Program-made: the position numbers and the translations under genes
Origin: an uncultured Lachnospiraceae bacterium
Lineage (GTDB): Bacteria; Bacillota; Clostridia; Lachnospirales; Lachnospiraceae
NCBI GenBank assembly: GCA_902798585.1
Contig: CADBXF010000005.1
Location: 1-64,000, forward strand
Length of the DNA stretch: 64,000 bases
Direction of reading: 5' to 3'
Notes under the pieces: model-generated
What the model was told of the DNA's origin: nothing
The model's input: the letters and a program-made list of their open reading frames with translations, nothing else
Database searches by the model: none
Shown: positions 47,542 to 56,353 of the stretch, piece by piece
Layout: every line of letters starts with the position of its first letter
Position numbering within the stretch: position 1 is the first letter of the stretch

Positions 47542-48489
47542 CTAAAGATCAAACCGGAACACCTTCACCTGCCGTTCGCCTCTTTCGTACATGTCGTGAT
47601 CCTCGGGGATATCCGCGGTCTCCAGGTACGTTCCGCCGGCCAGCTCGCAGGTGCGCGCAGACGCATCGTTCGTCGGAATGCAGGTAATGAGCACGTACGT
47701 AAGGCCGTGTTTCCGCGCCTGACGGAACAACAGCTCGCACGCCTTCGCCGCATAGTGATGCCCGCGGTACGGCTCGTCAATCCCGTAGCCGATGTTGCCG
47801 CCGATATAGAGCTTGTCATTGTGGCCGATGCGCAGGTCGCATTTTCCAATCTTCGTTCCGTCCGAAAGGCAGATGTCAAAATGGTATGCAGGCACAAACT
47901 GTTTCTCCGGCTGCGCCTCGCAAAGGCGCACCAGCCGCAGGAAGATCTCGTCCGACCGAAGGTCACTCACGTCGTAAAATGTAGACTGCTCCGGAAGCTG
48001 CCGTACCGTATCCCGGAACATCTCAAACCGCTGTCCCAGGGAGTACACAAACTCCTGGTTTGCGATCAGCTGCAGAATGTCCTCCTCCGTCGCCCAGCGC
48101 GCGTCAACCGCCTCATCCGGCTGAAGCACGATGTCCTTGATGTCAACATCCCTGCGCAGCAGATAGATGTCCTGGAAGTAGTTCTTGCGCTGATATGTCG
48201 TAAAGAGCGTAAACTCATGCTCTTTCGCCGCAATGCCGGTCTCCTCCGCAATCTCGCGCACGGCCGACTGCAGCGTGGTCTCGCCCGCGAGCGTACCGCC
48301 GCCCACGAACTCCCACTGGTTGCCCGCCTTCTTGGCCGGATGGCGCTTCTGGATCAAAAACTCGCCCTTCGAATTCCGTACCCACACCTCAACGCACACA
48401 TAGTACTCGCCCTCGCCGAATGCCTCGCCGCGCACATGCGTGCGCCCGAGCGGCTTTCTCTCGCTGTCATACAGATCCCACAGTTCCAT
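47542..48489 (-). CDS. NUDIX - GNAT fusion protein
   Basis: 315 aa from ATG 48489 (AAGGAG seven bases upstream). Residues ~1-155 are a NUDIX enzyme with box GGGTLAGETTLQSAVREIAE then ETGI. Residues ~170-315 are a GNAT domain (LYIGGNIGYGI, EPYRGHHYAAKACELL, NDASARTCELAGG). The NUDIX half closely matches that of the glycosylase-NUDIX protein at 52618, which ends at the point where this one continues into the GNAT, so the fusion joins two otherwise complete proteins through a ~10-residue linker. Function unknown. Confidence 0.88.
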   Translation of the reverse strand: MELWDLYDSERKPLGRTHVRGEAFGEGEYYVCVEVWVRNSKGEFLIQKRHPAKKAGNQWEFVGGGTLAGETTLQSAVREIAEETGIAAKEHEFTLFTTYQRKNYFQDIYLLRRDVDIKDIVLQPDEAVDARWATEEDILQLIANQEFVYSLGQRFEMFRDTVRQLPEQSTFYDVSDLRSDEIFLRLVRLCEAQPEKQFVPAYHFDICLSDGTKIGKCDLRIGHNDKLYIGGNIGYGIDEPYRGHHYAAKACELLFRQARKHGLTYVLITCIPTNDASARTCELAGGTYLETADIPEDHDMYERGERQVKVFRFDL

Positions 48490-48576
48490 TTTTTGTCTCC
48501 TTCCCGGAAAATGAGGTTCCGCCACCGCAATGTCGAAGCAAACCTCAATCCCGTATCAAAATTTATTTTTCAAAAA

Positions 48577-49101
48577 TCAAAGCGCCTTCGCAAAAAACAA
48601 CAGCAGATCGTCATCGTTGACGCAGGGCTCATACTGTCCCAGCTGCTTTCCCTGATACCACACGCCGCTACCGTCCGGAATATATCCGCGCTTTACATAG
48701 ATGCGCTGCGCCGGGCCGTACCCGGAGTGCACGCCGACGGCAAGGAACACATGGTCCGTGATCTTCGCGGCCTCGCCTTCTGCAACATCCAGAAGCTTGT
48801 TGCCGATGCCCTTGTTGTGGATGTGGAAGAACACGCACAAATCCACAATCTCCGGCCATCCGTTGCCGGCATACGGCCCCTCCGTCGGGTGTAGCACAAG
48901 GGTGCAGATACCCGCAACCTCCCCCTCATATTCGGGGATGAACACAAGGCGCTCACCTGCCTCCTGTTCCCGAAGATATCCTTCGTACGTCTCCATCTGC
49001 GGATGCCAGCCGTACGACTGGTAGGTATCGAAAATGGCCTTCGCATCCGCGGGAACCATGCTCCGAATCCGGATGGTCCCGTCATCATAATAAACCGTCA
49101 T
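48577..49101 (-). CDS. GNAT family N-acetyltransferase
   Basis: 174 aa. CoA motif HNKGIGNKLLDVAE, preceded by IVDLCVFFHI and followed by GYGPAQRIYVKRGYIPDG. The ends VWYQGKQLGQYEPC and DDLLLFFAKAL match a Clostridia GNAT group. Acceptor unknown. First of four consecutive GNAT genes. Confidence 0.88.
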   Translation of the reverse strand: MTVYYDDGTIRIRSMVPADAKAIFDTYQSYGWHPQMETYEGYLREQEAGERLVFIPEYEGEVAGICTLVLHPTEGPYAGNGWPEIVDLCVFFHIHNKGIGNKLLDVAEGEAAKITDHVFLAVGVHSGYGPAQRIYVKRGYIPDGSGVWYQGKQLGQYEPCVNDDDLLLFFAKAL

Positions 49102-49125
49102 TGGTAATTCCTCCGTCTTTCGTTT

Positions 49126-49584
49126 TTAATCCTTCAGGTACCTGCGCAACAGCGGCACTTCCTGCAGTTCCGCGCCCTCGAACGCACGGTAGAAACGGTC
49201 CGCCTCGGGGTTCGTCGCCCGAATCAGATAGTATTGGTTGATTCCGCTGCGCTCGCAATCCTCCTGCATTTTCCGAAACAGCGCCTGCGCGACACCCTTG
49301 TGACGCGCCTTCGGAAGCACATAGACCCAGTCCACATACGCCATCCGATAACCGTCCTGCAGGCAGCCGTAGAAGTGGTACTCAATCCTCCCTACGACCT
49401 CGTCGCCTTCGATTGCAAGCAGCGATGTTGTTTTCCCGTAAAATGCATCCCGCATCCTCGCGCGGATGCCTTCCTCGTCCACCGCCTCCGCCGTCATCAT
49501 CTGCGGCTCCAGCGCCATCGCCTTGTGCAGGTAGCGAAGATAACTCCCGACATTGTTCTCACCGAGTCTCTCAATTCGAAGCAT
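49126..49584 (-). CDS. GNAT family N-acetyltransferase
   Basis: 152 aa. CoA motif KARHKGVAQALFRKM, preceded by YVDWVYVLP and followed by ATNPEADRFYRAFEGAE. Acceptor unknown. One of four consecutive GNAT genes that share no obvious close sequence similarity with one another, so this is not a recent tandem duplication. Confidence 0.85.
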   Translation of the reverse strand: MLRIERLGENNVGSYLRYLHKAMALEPQMMTAEAVDEEGIRARMRDAFYGKTTSLLAIEGDEVVGRIEYHFYGCLQDGYRMAYVDWVYVLPKARHKGVAQALFRKMQEDCERSGINQYYLIRATNPEADRFYRAFEGAELQEVPLLRRYLKD

Positions 49585-49626
49585 AGCCCCTCCGAAACGC
49601 CCTTATCCGGGCAAACTCCTTATTTA

Positions 49627-50229
49627 TCACTCCCGGATTCCGACTGTCCCGCAGGCCGCAGCCATCTCCTCATACTCCGGATGCTCCGCAAGCGCCCTAT
49701 CGGTATCGATGTGGTAGACCACAACCATGCCGTGGGAATCCTCATCGTCATAATACTCGCGAACCCGCACGCCGCCGAGCGCCTCCATCGTCCGCCACGA
49801 CGCCGGATTGTTCAGGTCGGCGTCCAGCATCACGGTTTTGATGCCGTATCGGCTGCACACCTTCAGACCGAGGTAGAGGTTAATCTTGTTGTAACCCTTT
49901 CCCCGCTCCGTCGGTCGGATACTGTAGCCGATGTGACCGCCGTGCTTTCTCATTTTCCCGTTGAGCGCGAGGCGGATGTTAATCATCCCGATGATTCGGT
50001 TATCATTCTCGCGCACCAGAAAGAACTCCCTCGCGGGAACCCGCTCCTCGGTGAGCTCCGCCACGGCCCGCTCCGCTGTCATGCGAAGCCATCCATCATA
50101 ATCCGTGAGAAAATGATTCAGACCGCCGGCGCCGTTAATCTGCGAACCGTACTCCCGAAACTCCCGGATGTACGCTATGGCTTCCTCTTTCCGGCTGACG
50201 CCGGGCGCTTCCAGGTAAAATTTCTCCAT
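49627..50229 (-). CDS. GNAT family N-acetyltransferase
   Basis: 200 aa from ATG 50229 (AGGGAG six bases upstream; it lies just after the stop of the preceding gene). HIGYSIRPTERGKGYNKINL is the CoA-binding strand and motif, with LDADLNNPASWRTMEALGG after it. This resembles the YjaB/YkkB-type GNATs that act on small amines; acceptor unknown. Confidence 0.87.
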   Translation of the reverse strand: MEKFYLEAPGVSRKEEAIAYIREFREYGSQINGAGGLNHFLTDYDGWLRMTAERAVAELTEERVPAREFFLVRENDNRIIGMINIRLALNGKMRKHGGHIGYSIRPTERGKGYNKINLYLGLKVCSRYGIKTVMLDADLNNPASWRTMEALGGVRVREYYDDEDSHGMVVVYHIDTDRALAEHPEYEEMAAACGTVGIRE

Positions 50230-50245
50230 AGTTTTCTCCCTGCAA

Positions 50246-50839
50246 TCAACTCTTAAGAATCGCCTGCACCGCACCCTCCGCAAGCTCGGAAAAGGGAATC
50301 ACTTCCTTCGGCGGAACGCTGTGCTCGTTGATGATCTTCTCCATCCAAAGGAGGTTGTACCACCGGCCGAATTTGCTGCCGCAGCCGTGATAGCGCGCCA
50401 CCGGCTTGTACCCGATCGCCTCATGAAAATGCTCGCTGTTTCTGGTGAGGTACGGGTCTTCCTCCTCCATCGGATCCGCAGCTCCGGCATAGAGGTTGGT
50501 GATGTTTTGAAGCTTTAAGATCGCCTCAAGCTTCTCGTACAAAAGCTTCCCGATGCCTCGTCTGTGGTAGTCCCGGTCGATGTAGATGGAAGTGCCTGCC
50601 GCCCAGCCGTAAGCCGCTCTCTGCGCAAAACGCGACGCATAGATGTAGCCGACGATCCGACCTTCCTCCTCCGCCACAATGTACGGATACTTCACAAGCG
50701 TGCTCCGGATGCGCTCCGTAAACTCCGCAAGGGTCGGCACATCGTACTCGTACGACACCGCCGTATTCTCCACATAGTAGGCGTAAATCTCAAGAATTCG
50801 CGAGGCGTCCTCCACCTTCGCAATTCGAAAAGTGATCAC
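50246..50839 (-). CDS. Phosphinothricin/methionine-sulfoximine-like N-acetyltransferase
   Basis: 197 aa. The Pat/Bar-like pattern is visible: YYVENTAVSYEYDVPT near residue 21, YIYASRFAQRAAYGWAAGTSIYI and HRRGIGKLLYEKLE as CoA motif, then FHEAIGYKPVARYHGCGSKFGRWYN. Members acetylate phosphinothricin or related compounds. The ~30 residues after the fold are an extra tail. Acceptor here unproven. Confidence 0.82.
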   Translation of the reverse strand: MITFRIAKVEDASRILEIYAYYVENTAVSYEYDVPTLAEFTERIRSTLVKYPYIVAEEEGRIVGYIYASRFAQRAAYGWAAGTSIYIDRDYHRRGIGKLLYEKLEAILKLQNITNLYAGAADPMEEEDPYLTRNSEHFHEAIGYKPVARYHGCGSKFGRWYNLLWMEKIINEHSVPPKEVIPFSELAEGAVQAILKS

Positions 50840-50857
50840 TGTTTTGTTCTCCTTACT

Positions 50858-51349
50858 TCAGTCCTGCAGCTCCGGCACGAACTGCCACATGCGATGCGTC
50901 AGAAGTTCGCCCTTCATAGCCAGCAAAGTCTCCCGGTCGATCCAGCGGTACGCAACGGTCTCGCCCTCCTGCAGGATTACGCTGTCCTTTTCGCAGGACG
51001 TCTCCGCAAAATACTCCGCGTACACCGAATGCGTCGGCGGATTCACAACCCTGCCGACCTCGGTTATCCGGTCCGCTGTGATCCCGGTCTCCTCCCGAAG
51101 CTCGCGGATTGCGCCCGCAAGCGGACTCTCGCCTTTAAGCGCCGAGCCGCCGGCCGTCGCCTCCCACATGCTGCCGTAGGCCTTGCGCGGGTCGCGCTGC
51201 ATGATCAGATAGGTTCCGTCCGCATGCTTCAGAATGATCTCGCACACGAGGTGGAACACGCCTTCGGCAAATGTCGCCTCCTCGCCGCGCACGAGTGTCA
51301 CGCCCGGTATGATGTTAAAGTCGCTGTCATAAGCGTCCCAGAGTTCCAT
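50858..51349 (-). CDS. NUDIX hydrolase
   Basis: 163 aa from ATG 51349 (AAGGA eight bases upstream). Box GGSALKGESPLAGAIRELRE then ETGI. It starts MELWDAYDSD, like the NUDIX parts of the proteins at 47542 and 52618 (MELWDLYDSE, MELWDLFDSD), so the three are paralogues. It follows the shortened methyltransferase gene by 19 bases. This mirrors the methyltransferase - glycosylase-NUDIX order at 54.2-52.6 kb. Confidence 0.88.
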   Translation of the reverse strand: MELWDAYDSDFNIIPGVTLVRGEEATFAEGVFHLVCEIILKHADGTYLIMQRDPRKAYGSMWEATAGGSALKGESPLAGAIRELREETGITADRITEVGRVVNPPTHSVYAEYFAETSCEKDSVILQEGETVAYRWIDRETLLAMKGELLTHRMWQFVPELQD

Positions 51350-51368
51350 TTTCCGTTCCTTGTTCCGA

Positions 51369-51818
51369 TTACTTTTTGCCGTATTTGCGCTGCAGCTTCT
51401 TCGACATTGTCTGCGTGTTCTTCTTCGGCTTTTCCACGCGCGCCGCGCGCTTCTCACTGAGGAAAATGAAATAGTCCTCCGCCTCGAACACCTTCACGCC
51501 GCCGAAAACCGATGTCAGCTTGTTTTTGTACCATTCAAGCCGCTTGGTCACCATGACCATCCGGCCGCCCACCGCAAGTTTGCGAAAGCCGTCCTCGAGG
51601 ATATCACACATCACGACATGCTCGCCGCCGAGCTGCTTCGCCGCATAGATTCCGACAACGCCGTAGCCGCACCCGAGGTCAAGCACCTTGTCGCCCTCGC
51701 GGACAGGCACGGTCTCCAACATAAGGCGCGTGCCGCGGTCCACACGGTTCGGCGAAAAATAGTACTCGCCGGTCTCGCATGTGATATCGATTCCGTTGAT
51801 TTCTTCCTTTACCGTCAT
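51369..51818 (-). pseudogene. RsmC/YbxB-like methyltransferase with 165-bp in-frame deletion
   Basis: 149 codons, near-identical to the 204-aa protein at 53608-54222 except that 55 residues are missing between MCDILED and GFRKL. The missing part contains the catalytic NPPYHTDF motif and half of the SAM-binding domain, so activity is very unlikely. In the intact copy CGTCCTCGA (plus strand) occurs at 53829-53837 and at 53994-54002, exactly 165 bp apart; here it occurs once, at 51590-51598. The deletion therefore fits slippage or recombination at a 9-bp direct repeat. The frame is still open, so a stub protein could be made. Confidence 0.9.
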
Positions 51819-51847
51819 AGTTTCCATCGCTCCCTGACGAATTCTTC

Positions 51848-52597
51848 TTACACATACCGCCAAATGGTGATGCCCGTCTTTCCTTTTCTCGTGGCATGCT
51901 CCTCGCCGCGGTATTCGAATTTACCGAATCCCCGTATGGAGACCTTACTGTCCGCTTTCAACACGGTCTCCGGGTTTGTGCATACTCTCCCGTTCACAGT
52001 CACCTTCTCAGCCTCGAACAGGCTCTTAGCCTCTCCGCGGGAGAGATGATATGCCTTCGCTAAGACAGCGTCCAGCCGCGGCGATGCGACCGTAACCGTC
52101 TCCTCCGAAAGCTTCGGAAGGCACCCCTCTGGGACTTCCCTGACCGACTCGCATTTGACGGCTGTGCGCCGCACGCGCTCCAGCTCGAGGCACACAAAAT
52201 CGGCCAGCTCCTCCAACACGAAAAGATAGGCTGTATTTTCCGAGATCAGAATATCCCCGATTACATCCCGCTCAATCCCGAGATTCAGCACGGCACCCAG
52301 AAAATCGCGATGCGTCAGCGAATCTGCGAACTTTTCCTGCTTCGGCTTAATGCACACAATGCGAATCGGAAAATCCTCCTCGTATCCGAGCTCCTCCGGA
52401 TCACCGAAGCGCACCATTACGCGCTCGGAATTGTCCGTGCCGCCCCACATAGTGACTTCCGTTTCCTCCGCCACCCGGTAGGCCAGGCTTGCAGTCTCCG
52501 CGGAATGGAAGCTTGAGTAGGTATAAACCCCGCTTCGCCTCGCCCGCTCCGCCAGCTCTTCGAACCGTTTTCGATTTTTCTCCGCATGCTCGTCCAT
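51848..52597 (-). CDS. S4-domain RNA-binding protein, YlmH-like
   Basis: 249 aa. The S4 domain is at residues ~172-235 (RLDAVLAKAYHLSRGEAKSLF, EAEKVTVNGRVCTNPE, DSKVSIRGFGKF). Ahead of it lies the YlmH-type domain (EETEVTMWGG, RIVCIKPKQEKFADSLTHRDFLGAVLNLGIERDVIGDI, FVLEELADFVCLELERV). YlmH is found in the cell-division cluster of Firmicutes and has been linked to ribosome quality control. Its place here, away from ftsZ-linked genes, is unusual; it sits between the two methyltransferase-NUDIX units. Confidence 0.85.
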   Translation of the reverse strand: MDEHAEKNRKRFEELAERARRSGVYTYSSFHSAETASLAYRVAEETEVTMWGGTDNSERVMVRFGDPEELGYEEDFPIRIVCIKPKQEKFADSLTHRDFLGAVLNLGIERDVIGDILISENTAYLFVLEELADFVCLELERVRRTAVKCESVREVPEGCLPKLSEETVTVASPRLDAVLAKAYHLSRGEAKSLFEAEKVTVNGRVCTNPETVLKADSKVSIRGFGKFEYRGEEHATRKGKTGITIWRYV

Positions 52598-52617
52598 CGA
52601 TTCCTTCCCGCCGGATT

Positions 52618-53598
52618 CTACCGAAGCTGCCGGACCGTGTCCCGGTACCTTGTAAACCGGATACCGACAGACGGCACGAATTCACCGGTCTCCATCAACC
52701 GCAGAATATCCTCCTCCGCTGCCCACCGCGCATCGATACCTTCGCCGGGCTGAAGCACGATATCCTTGATGTCGACATCCCTGCGAAGCAGATACAGGTC
52801 TCCGAAATAGTTCTTATTCCGGTAAGTCGCAAAGAATGTAAACTCCTGCTCCGCCGCCGAAATCCCGGTCTCCTCTGCAACTTCGCGCACTGCCGACTGT
52901 CGCGTGGTTTCCCCGGCGAGCGTTCCGCCGCCGACGAATTCCCATAGATTGCCGTTCTTCTTGGCGGGATGGCGCTTCTGAATCAGAAACTCCCCTTTCG
53001 AGTTCCGAATCCACGCCTCTACCCAGACATAGTATTCGCCCTCGGCGAAAGCCTCTCCCCGCACATGGGTGCGTCCGAGAGGCTTTCTGTCGCTGTCAAA
53101 CAGATCCCAGAGTTCCATTTTCCGCTCCTTTATGCACTTCCACTCCGAGACGAGCCGCTCCGTGTTCCACGCCGCATTTGCGGGGCTTGTGGACGGAAGG
53201 CAGGTCGCCGGCCGGTGGATTGTCGGTTGTATGTAGCGCTCGTAGTACCGAAGCGCGGTTTTGCCGTTGACGTAGATTGCCTCGATTGTCGCTGTGTCCA
53301 GAATCACCCGAAGGTCGTTCGCCACGACGTTTCGTATGCTCGCGTCCGAGGAGCCCTCGATCTCGCACGAGTGGATCACATCCCAGACCGCAACACGGTT
53401 TCTGAGCAAAAACGCCCGTTTTTCTTCGATTGTCCGCGGCACGTCCTCTCCGAACACCGCTGCCGTCACCTTCCAGAAACGGTTCTGCGGATGTCCGTAG
53501 AAAAAACCTGCCTCCCGCGATTTAACCGACGGAAAGCTGCCGAGGATCAACACTCGGGAATCCCTGTCAAACACAGGGGAAATCGGATGAATGATCAT
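52618..53598 (-). CDS. Fused DNA-deoxyinosine/uracil glycosylase - NUDIX hydrolase
   Basis: 326 aa. Residues 1 to ~157 are a Mug-like UDG-superfamily glycosylase (LILGSFPSVKSREAGFFYGHP, VWDVIHSC, LPSTSPANAAW). Residues 161-326 are a NUDIX enzyme (box GGGTLAGETTRQSAVREVAE then ETGI). At the join the ORF contains AAGGAG (53125-53130), six bases and ATG at 53118 followed by ELWD, the normal start of the paralogous NUDIX proteins. The glycosylase thus appears to have lost its stop while the second start site remained. Both activities would act on damaged bases or nucleotides. Confidence 0.88.
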   Translation of the reverse strand: MIIHPISPVFDRDSRVLILGSFPSVKSREAGFFYGHPQNRFWKVTAAVFGEDVPRTIEEKRAFLLRNRVAVWDVIHSCEIEGSSDASIRNVVANDLRVILDTATIEAIYVNGKTALRYYERYIQPTIHRPATCLPSTSPANAAWNTERLVSEWKCIKERKMELWDLFDSDRKPLGRTHVRGEAFAEGEYYVWVEAWIRNSKGEFLIQKRHPAKKNGNLWEFVGGGTLAGETTRQSAVREVAEETGISAAEQEFTFFATYRNKNYFGDLYLLRRDVDIKDIVLQPGEGIDARWAAEEDILRLMETGEFVPSVGIRFTRYRDTVRQLR

Positions 53599-53607
53599 CT
53601 TTGCTCC

Positions 53608-54222
53608 TTACTTCTTTCCGTACTTGCGCTGCAGCTTCTTCGACATTGTCTGCGTGTTCTTCTTCGGCTTTTCCACGCGCGCCGCGCGCTTCTCGCTGAG
53701 GAAGATGTAATAATCCTCCGCCTCGAACACCTTCACTCCGCCGAACACGGTCTTCAGTTTGTTTTTGTACCACTCGAGCCGCTTGGTCACCATGACCATC
53801 CGCCCGCCGACCGACAGCTTGCGAAATCCGTCCTCGATGAACTCCCTCGCCACCGAAAAGTCCGTATGGTACGGGGGATTTGAGTAGATCAGCGTAAAAT
53901 CCCGCTCTTCCACGCCCTTCAGGCCGTCGCTTTGCAGCACCTTCACGCCTTCAATACCGTTCCTAGCGAGATTCTCCATCGAGAGCGCCACCGCGTCCTC
54001 GAGGATATCGCACATCACGACATGGTCTCCTCCGAGCAGCTTCGCCGCATAAATCCCGACAACGCCATAGCCGCAGCCTAAATCGAGCACCTTGTCGCCC
54101 TCGCGGACGGGCACCGTCTCCAGCATAAGCCTCGTGCCGCGGTCCACACCCTTCGGCGAAAAAAAATACTCCCCGGTCTCGCAGACGATCTCGGTTCCGT
54201 TGATTTCTTCCTTAACAATCAT
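53608..54222 (-). CDS. RsmC/YbxB-like class I methyltransferase
   Basis: 204 aa, full length for this family. SAM motif VLDLGCGYGVVGIYAA, motif IV LIYSNPPYHTDF (amino-group methylation), and a basic tail KKNTQTMSKKLQRKYGKK suited to RNA binding. Relatives methylate guanine N2 of 16S rRNA (G1207 in E. coli RsmC). Its start lies within the end of the Fic gene (11-base overlap), so it is translated with it. Intact counterpart of the shortened copy at 51369. Confidence 0.9.
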   Translation of the reverse strand: MIVKEEINGTEIVCETGEYFFSPKGVDRGTRLMLETVPVREGDKVLDLGCGYGVVGIYAAKLLGGDHVVMCDILEDAVALSMENLARNGIEGVKVLQSDGLKGVEERDFTLIYSNPPYHTDFSVAREFIEDGFRKLSVGGRMVMVTKRLEWYKNKLKTVFGGVKVFEAEDYYIFLSEKRAARVEKPKKNTQTMSKKLQRKYGKK

Positions 54223-55168
54223 GATTCCAAGGCTCCATGTTCACTGTATTGATACCCGTCGGGAACACCCCCAACATTTTAAGTAATCGAACAAAAGTAT
54301 CCTGTCCATCACGACAGGTGTCCAACAGCCAGCCCTTCTCGTTTTTCCATTCAGCCAGCCCCCTGTAATAGTAATTCTTCTTGGCATCCTCAATAAGAAA
54401 GGGAATCACATTATGCCGCAAACACTCCTTCAGCGCCACAAGACGTCCGACTCTGCCGTTTCCGTCCTGGAAAGGATGAATGAACTCAAACTCGGCATGG
54501 AGTTCTACGATATCTTCAAGCGTCACATCATCCTTCGCATTATACCTATGTAGCAGATCTTTCATATGCTCATGTACTTCCGAAGGTTTCGATGTTTCCC
54601 GACCTCCGACCGTGTTGGCGCGCTTCTTATAAGCCCCGACCGCAAACCAGGAAAGCGAGGCGTCCTTGGTATCGTGCTTTAAAATATAGTGCAAATGCTT
54701 GATAATATCTTCTGTCAGTTCATCCTCTGCAATATCAATCACATAATCGATTGCACGAAAATGATGGACCGTTTCCAGCACATCATCGACCTGAATACCG
54801 TCCCCCGCATCAAGAGTATTTGTTTCGAAAATCAGCCTTGTCTGGTCCTCGGAAAGTTTGCTCCCTTCGATATGATTGGAATTATAGGTCATCCTGACCT
54901 GCAGTTCATGATACAAACCGCCGGAAAGTTTTACTTCTTTCTCCTCCCGCAGCACCTGCAGTATCCTGTTATCGGAAACTTCTCTCATGAGATCTTCCGA
55001 TTCAACGCCCAACCAGTCGGCAATCTTTTGTATGCTTCGGTTGGATAATCTTTCCCCTTTTCCAATCTTCGCGACTGTGCGTGTCGACAGTCCTAACCGC
55101 ACAGAGAGTTCCGTCTTTCCGATGCCTTTATCCTTAAGCGCCTTCTCAAGGCCTTCATAAGAAATCAT
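54212..55168 (-). CDS. Fic-domain protein with N-terminal helix-turn-helix
   Basis: 318 aa. Residues ~5-58 are an XRE-type DNA-binding domain (TELSVRLGLSTRTVAKIGKGERL). The Fic domain has the catalytic motif HPFQDGNGR at 231-239 and the inhibitory S-x3-E-G motif at Ser97-Gly102 in the same chain. Fic enzymes AMPylate target proteins. Start 55168 has GGAGG upstream. The upstream region has three GTAAAGAT sites on the promoter, so it probably represses itself. Comparatively AT-rich, suggesting transfer. Confidence 0.92.
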   Translation of the reverse strand: MISYEGLEKALKDKGIGKTELSVRLGLSTRTVAKIGKGERLSNRSIQKIADWLGVESEDLMREVSDNRILQVLREEKEVKLSGGLYHELQVRMTYNSNHIEGSKLSEDQTRLIFETNTLDAGDGIQVDDVLETVHHFRAIDYVIDIAEDELTEDIIKHLHYILKHDTKDASLSWFAVGAYKKRANTVGGRETSKPSEVHEHMKDLLHRYNAKDDVTLEDIVELHAEFEFIHPFQDGNGRVGRLVALKECLRHNVIPFLIEDAKKNYYYRGLAEWKNEKGWLLDTCRDGQDTFVRLLKMLGVFPTGINTVNMEPWNHDC

Positions 55169-55184
55169 GAATCCACCTCCCGAA

Positions 55185-55258
55185 ATCTTTACATATTTTA
55201 CCACACTCCGCACTAAAAGTAAAGATTATGGAGCTGTTTCAGCGTAAAATGTAAAGAT
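55185..55258 (-). promoter_or_regulatory. Promoter and triple operator of the Fic gene
   Basis: Minus-strand TTTACT (55218-55223), 17 bp, TAAAAT (55195-55200) with extended TGG. The octamer GTAAAGAT (or its complement) occurs at 55185-55192, 55219-55226 and 55251-55258: just downstream of the -10, on the -35, and upstream. The sites nearest the promoter are in inverted orientation. Strong candidate operator for the Fic protein's own HTH. Confidence 0.75.
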
Positions 55259-55288
55259 TTTCGGTTTCTTTTTCCGAATCACTCCATG

Positions 55289-56353
55289 TCAATTCCACCC
55301 GCGCCTGGTTTTTTCCAGTATCGCAAAGCCCTCATCCAGGTCGTTCCCGAGAACCTCCTGAATCTTTTCAAAATCATGCTCTTTGTGGAGCCTGTCCATC
55401 GTCTTCAAAAGTTCCGCTTTTCCGTACTTACGGATGAACAAAGCCATCGCCTTGATGGCGTTCACATCATCGTATTCGTAGAAGCCTTTCCGGCAGCTCA
55501 CAAGCGCGTCGCACTCGTAGCAGCCGTCGATACCCTTTTCCATGCAGCAGGCAGTGTTGGGGCATACCTTATCCGGATGGTTCATTGCATCGGAGCAGGT
55601 GTTGTAAGCGGTTCTGCACCCTCCGCACCAACTCTTCAAAAAGCAATGGTTGCAGGACAGACCGCATCGGGCAATCGGGTCCGCTCCTTTTCTCGCATTC
55701 TGACACAACTTATTGCTGATCCGGCACATGGCTTCGATATGCATAATCCAATGTCTGGAAAACGGCATTTTCAGAAGTCCGCGTACATCCTTGTCGCACC
55801 AGTAATCAATCAGCCAGACAGCATCCTCGTCCGTGCTAACGCATTGGCTGTCAATCACCCGCTTCTTATCCTCGTCAGAAAATTTGCGCTTCAAATCCTT
55901 ATAGGCGAGGCTTCGCAGCAACTCGTCGGTGGAATCCTTCACCGCTTTGCAATACTCAAACAGGACCTTGACATTCAGTTTCTTCGAGAACTCCGCGATT
56001 TCCTCGCCCTTAAGTTCATTGCCTGTGGTGATGATGGGACTGCCCGTTTTCTGCTGCCATTTGCCGGCGAAAAGAATCTGCTCGTCCCCCTTGATCAGCG
56101 TGTGCGCCACGATATCCTCAATGCGGAAAATGTGCCACATGGAATACGCAAGTGTCTTGCTGTGATACCCGTCCGCCCCCGCAAACGGCATTTGGTAAAA
56201 GGCCTCCTCCGGATACGGATTCACGATATACGAAACCTGCGTAAGCAGATCGTTTCGTAAGTCGATCAGCGCTTCGATTCCCTCGGCGAAGGCCGCTTCC
56301 CTGCCGATGAGCGATTGCATCTTTTTGTTTTTCTCTGACCAGTCCTTATTCAT
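55289..56353 (-). CDS. DinB-like domain - DUF3795 protein
   Basis: 354 aa. The N-terminal half resembles a DinB-type helical bundle (GIEALIDLRNDLLTQVSY, MWHIFRIEDIVAHTLI), usually a metal-binding fold in thiol-dependent enzymes. The C-terminal half is cysteine-rich in the DUF3795 pattern: CGLSCNHCFLKSWCGGCR, CSDAMNHPDKVCPNTACC, GCYECDALVSCRKG. Cysteines may bind zinc or a cluster. Function unknown. It lies upstream of the Fic gene but is separated from it by the Fic promoter. Confidence 0.75.
   Translation of the reverse strand: MNKDWSEKNKKMQSLIGREAAFAEGIEALIDLRNDLLTQVSYIVNPYPEEAFYQMPFAGADGYHSKTLAYSMWHIFRIEDIVAHTLIKGDEQILFAGKWQQKTGSPIITTGNELKGEEIAEFSKKLNVKVLFEYCKAVKDSTDELLRSLAYKDLKRKFSDEDKKRVIDSQCVSTDEDAVWLIDYWCDKDVRGLLKMPFSRHWIMHIEAMCRISNKLCQNARKGADPIARCGLSCNHCFLKSWCGGCRTAYNTCSDAMNHPDKVCPNTACCMEKGIDGCYECDALVSCRKGFYEYDDVNAIKAMALFIRKYGKAELLKTMDRLHKEHDFEKIQEVLGNDLDEGFAILEKTRRGWN

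Follow-up and report, generated by a model that had tools for sequence, protein, structure and literature searches.

Short direct repeats are known deletion hot spots. In a tested bacterium, direct repeats of 38 bp promoted the perfect loss of the DNA between them, with no need for double-strand-break repair genes (PMC3519483); those repeats are much longer than the 9-bp pair described below, and the support that the literature lends to our deletion reading is of a general kind. The gene concerned resembles the class I methyltransferases RsmC, RlmG and MJ0882 (PF05175; PDB 2pjd, 4dcm and 1dus, respectively), and it is present in two versions in a rumen-type gut bacterium, an uncultured member of the Lachnospiraceae, from which a stretch of 64,000 nucleotides was analysed (the window). 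One version, FULL, is intact and the other, STUB, lacks an internal segment (Table 1).

FULL matched the Pfam MTS profile (PF05175) with 131.2 bits over profile positions 10-167 of 170. Like RsmC, RlmG and MJ0882 it carries both motif I (DLGCGYG) and NPPY. These three proteins were also its nearest solved structures, with alignment at residues 2-178 to 1dus and at residues 16-166 to 2pjd. In contrast to these proteins, FULL is a single 204-aa domain with a basic tail. It scored 84.6 bits against the NCBIfam model of RsmC, the 16S rRNA m2G1207 methyltransferase (NF007023, cut-off 295), and 59.9 bits against that of RlmG (cut-off 468), far below the threshold in both cases. By analogy with these enzymes one might guess at rRNA or an RNA base as its substrate. 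STUB matched the MTS profile at positions 10-63 of 170 only and differs from all three known enzymes in having neither NPPY nor about a quarter of the chain.

Table 1. Features of the two methyltransferase genes and their neighbours, in coordinates of the window
Feature	Coordinates	Strand	Basis or size
NUDIX_A, downstream of STUB	50858..51349	-	profile match, gene order
STUB, MTS-type methyltransferase gene without 165 bp	51369..51818	-	450 bp, 149 aa
Lone CGTCCTCGA in STUB, at the deletion junction	51590..51598	.	sequence match
YlmH-like S4-domain protein gene, type II half marker, directly upstream of STUB	51848..52597	-	profile match, gene order
NUDIX_B, downstream of UDG	52618..53118	-	matches NUDIX half of NUDIX-GNAT gene at 47542-48492
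UDG, DNA-deoxyinosine glycosylase (TIGR04274), type I island	53131..53598	-	profile match, DNA identity
FULL, intact MTS-family methyltransferase, RsmC/RlmG/MJ0882-like	53608..54222	-	615 bp, 204 aa
Direct repeat CGTCCTCGA, 3' side of FULL gene	53829..53837	.	sequence match
165-bp FULL segment absent from STUB	53838..54002	-	residues 77-131 of FULL
Direct repeat CGTCCTCGA, 5' side of FULL gene	53994..54002	.	sequence match
Fic gene and g55289, type I half markers	54212..56353	-	profile match, gene order, DNA identity

In the coding-strand orientation the repeat reads TCGAGGACG; counted from 0, it begins at positions 220 and 385 of the FULL gene but only at position 220 in STUB. The DNA missing from STUB is the 165 bp, or 55 codons, between the two FULL repeats, and the NPPY motif lies inside it. 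The size of the gap, the positions of the 9-mer and the loss of NPPY were all given exactly in the original prediction, as rechecking of the coordinates confirmed. The base-by-base alignment that it had proposed showed 198/229 identical positions before the gap and 196/218 after it, with no other insertion or deletion. The two genes, which had been called near-identical, are thus about 88% identical outside the gap and differ at roughly one base in eight (about 12%). In the AlphaFold2 model of FULL (pLDDT 90), the absent residues make up strands beta3 and beta4 and the NPPY loop, as well as the greater part of helix alphaC and of alphaD. The motif SNPPYHTDF in this part is nearly invariant across 43 aligned homologues. 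An alternative in-frame ATG 9 nt upstream could also serve as the start of STUB.

The two methyltransferase (MTase) genes belong to different lineages. In a tree built on the 447 columns shared by STUB and the intact genes, STUB grouped with L071 (genome G006) and L070 (G012) with support of 92/94, and FULL grouped with L068 and L069 (G013 and G010), again with 92/94; a sister relationship of STUB and FULL was rejected (AU p = 4.0e-6). L071, from an uncultured Lachnospiraceae metagenome assembly, was the intact gene nearest to the left half of STUB (208/229 identical). Like FULL, it shows the 9-mer twice, at positions 220 and 385 of the gene, with the 165 bp in between, so that two direct repeats stand in both intact genes where one is left in STUB. 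It occupies the same place, in the order YlmH-MTase(intact)-GNAT, and the spacer between YlmH and the MTase matches that of STUB almost letter for letter. This is direct evidence that a related species carries, at the corresponding place, an intact form that still has the two repeats, and with it the repeat-mediated deletion originally proposed is well supported. Among 22 genomes of the genus, only that of the window has two MTase copies, its relatives having at most one. An apparent second copy in G012 (L080 at the end of contig C99, L070 on C72) was rejected as one gene split over two contigs that overlap with 530/530 identical positions; once joined, they give the order MT56461-MTase-GNAT.

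Comparison of gene order within the genus revealed two types of the surrounding island. Type I (genomes G013, G004, G010, G014 and G001) reads MT56461-g55289-(Fic)-(MTase)-UDG-(NUDIX_A)-GNAT, with some genes absent in single genomes. Type II (G006, G008, G020 and perhaps G012, where YlmH is absent) reads MT56461-YlmH-(MTase or UDG)-(NUDIX_A)-GNAT. The window has the order MT56461-g55289-Fic-MTase-UDG-NUDIX_B-YlmH-STUB-NUDIX_A-GNAT, which is type I in its left part and type II in its right part. The identities of single genes agree with this division: g55289 and Fic were found in type I genomes only, the UDG of the window has a DNA identity of 90-94% with its type I counterparts and of 84% with those of type II, and its YlmH, at 86-87% DNA identity, was matched in type II genomes only. 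The genes o46190 and g46836 also had their best matches in type II genomes.

These gene orders bear on the claim that the MTase-NUDIX unit had been duplicated in tandem, with a later 165-bp loss in one MTase. The order MTase...NUDIX does occur twice, as reported, but the glycosylase is not all that interrupts it: UDG sits between FULL and NUDIX_B, and the YlmH/S4-domain gene comes next, ahead of STUB. The two NUDIX proteins are only 36-37% identical and thus anciently diverged; other genomes hold orthologues or paralogues that are closer to each of them. Neither the MTases nor the NUDIX genes are each other's closest relatives, as tandem copies should be, and UDG, YlmH and Fic/g55289 assign the two halves to different island types. 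A tandem duplication is therefore extremely improbable. The repeated order is better read as a by-product of a merger of type I and type II islands, with capture of a second NUDIX domain, and the tempting duplication reading has to be corrected because repeated gene order did not, in this case, come from duplication.

One of the joints can be read. The UDG-NUDIX_B boundary of the window and the UDG-NUDIX_A boundary in G013 are the same as far as the first codons that they share, ATGGAACTCTGGGA. Past this point the protein sequence of NUDIX_B shows 79% identity to the NUDIX portion of the window's own NUDIX-GNAT gene, and it ends at the domain border. Region 52618-53130 thus looks like the NUDIX part of such a fusion gene, attached downstream of the glycosylase at ATGGAACTCTGGGA.

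How the 165 bp were lost was considered in the light of the repeat itself. When all breakpoint pairs 60-400 bp apart within the intact gene were enumerated, random breakpoints shared at least 9 bp at a frequency of 1.5e-4 in FULL and 3.9e-4 in L071. FULL contains two 9-bp direct repeat pairs, the one at the deletion site among them, and L071 contains four 9-bp pairs and one 10-bp pair. The repeat thus accounts for the site of the deletion, although other candidate sites exist, and the pair used is a good but not a unique substrate for slippage. That the deletion left the frame intact (165 = 3 x 55) is on its own a 1-in-3 event. The most likely route is slipped mispairing during replication or some other event that uses short homology and does not depend on RecA; such routes look alike at the sequence level.

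Alternatively, STUB could have arisen by an unequal crossover between two MTase genes at the 9-bp repeat, with a left end of type II and a right end of type I. The nearest DNA to the right half of STUB is indeed a type I gene, L078 (199/218 identical, against 187/218 for L071), and placement of this half within the type I group was not rejected (p 0.26). In addition, STUB (51369-51450) and FULL (53608-53690) share an identical run of 71 bp near their 3' ends (positions 529-599 of the gapped alignment). This run is perhaps a short conversion tract; the 3' end is, however, conserved in most close relatives. Against a crossover, the best right-half tree still pairs STUB with L071 (75/84), whose lower identity there is accounted for by its long branch on this half, and STUB and L071 share T-S (KLTSVFGG), in contrast to the K-T of the close type I genes (KLKTVFGG). 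The same trees did not show a mosaic origin of STUB, as both halves group with L070/L071, the right half weakly. Moreover, ordinary homologous recombination needs far more than an overlap of 9 bp. We consider a crossover unlikely and prefer a deletion within the type II copy because it takes one event and needs only 9 bp of homology.

Could mixed strains have been misassembled so as to create the deletion, or even the entire joint between type I and type II? In favour of such an error, the related genomes that stand closest are metagenome assemblies, and both island types lie on one contig. However, the 15-, 21-, 27- and 31-mers that cross the junction in STUB are found nowhere else in the window, so that the assembler must have seen reads bearing the junction, and the genome has ratings of 100% for completeness and 0.35% for contamination, the contig being 205 kb long. 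A collapse between the two copies, the artefact that had been raised as a possible refutation, is very unlikely given their divergence and the uniqueness of the junction 15-mers. A mixed-strain chimera joining the two islands is likewise unlikely, and misassembly as a whole has a very small probability.

The stub is in frame, as originally noted, and contains neither a stop nor a frameshift. Since the frame and the upstream region are kept, STUB may possibly be expressed. On its branch since the split from L071, we counted 7 synonymous and 0 nonsynonymous changes (neutral probability 8e-5), as compared with 19 synonymous and 11 nonsynonymous changes on the L071 branch. This count shows no decay and therefore leaves room for some retained constraint; it would fit either a recent deletion, the simpler reading, or a remnant that is still constrained. 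An AlphaFold model of STUB reached pLDDT 87 and pTM 0.75, with a drop in pLDDT to 66 at the junction, but it was built on an alignment of intact relatives and is no proof of folding. A Foldseek search with this model retrieved the parent fold only (1dus, TM 0.67).

The open frame, the conserved upstream spacer, the 7:0 count and the confident model would all suit a short protein that is being maintained, such as a partner of the intact enzyme with a SAM-binding or regulatory role. On the other hand, the 7:0 changes may predate the deletion, and STUB retains motif I, for SAM binding, but has lost beta3, beta4 and the NPPY loop, with a fall in model confidence where the chain is rejoined. The junction was found in 0/396 other sampled Lachnospiraceae genomes, most of them of different genera, and in no other of the 22 genomes of the genus. 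A maintained function is accordingly improbable. The specific version in which STUB persists as a short protein that has no methyltransferase activity but binds SAM and modulates the adjacent, acquired intact enzyme is highly doubtful. Most likely, STUB is a pseudogene of recent origin that is catalytically dead.

Taken together, we assign a probability of roughly 0.8 to the whole account of an island merger followed by a 165-bp loss in the type II copy and a dead young pseudogene. Two versions of one accessory MTase gene would have come from two lineages of the same genus. Joining of a type I half (g55289-Fic-MTase-glycosylase) to a type II half (YlmH-MTase-NUDIX_A-GNAT) would have brought both MTases into one island. 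The type II copy would then have lost the DNA between its two 9-bp direct repeats, leaving an in-frame remnant that keeps the SAM-binding motif I but is without the catalytic NPPY loop and two strands of the sheet. Such a remnant could be tolerated because the intact type I copy remains.

The case as a whole is ordinary gene decay after an island merger. Its value is modest, that of a clean worked example in which both repeats are present in an intact gene from the same lineage and a redundant second copy came with the island merger; together, these two point to a route by which a second version is first gained and one of the two is then lost.

The wider setting, at 39514-61416, is a long array of small accessory enzymes on the same strand with very short spacers, the intergenic gaps of the island being mostly <50 nt. 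It includes many GNATs, several NUDIX proteins, an isochorismatase, HAD, PHP and Fic proteins, an S51 peptidase, a metallophosphatase and methyltransferases. The GNAT at 50246-50839 is near the arsinothricin-resistance ArsN1 family B, below the cut-off (155.6 against 210 bits). The place of the array is conserved, yet its content and order vary from species to species within the genus, as in the variable accessory gene islands of bacterial chromosomes. The island differs from these in that no mobility gene was seen among the genes scanned, and no element recurred between the genes when 49000-56000 was searched for repeats, attC-like sites of an integron cassette array included; the single readable joint shows short homology at a gene start. 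The deletion itself closely follows the pseudogenes formed between short direct repeats by RecA-independent slipped mispairing or single-strand annealing, in which likewise one repeat and the intervening DNA are lost and a single repeat stays at the junction. STUB does not depart from them in substance, its deletion being one that happens to be in frame.
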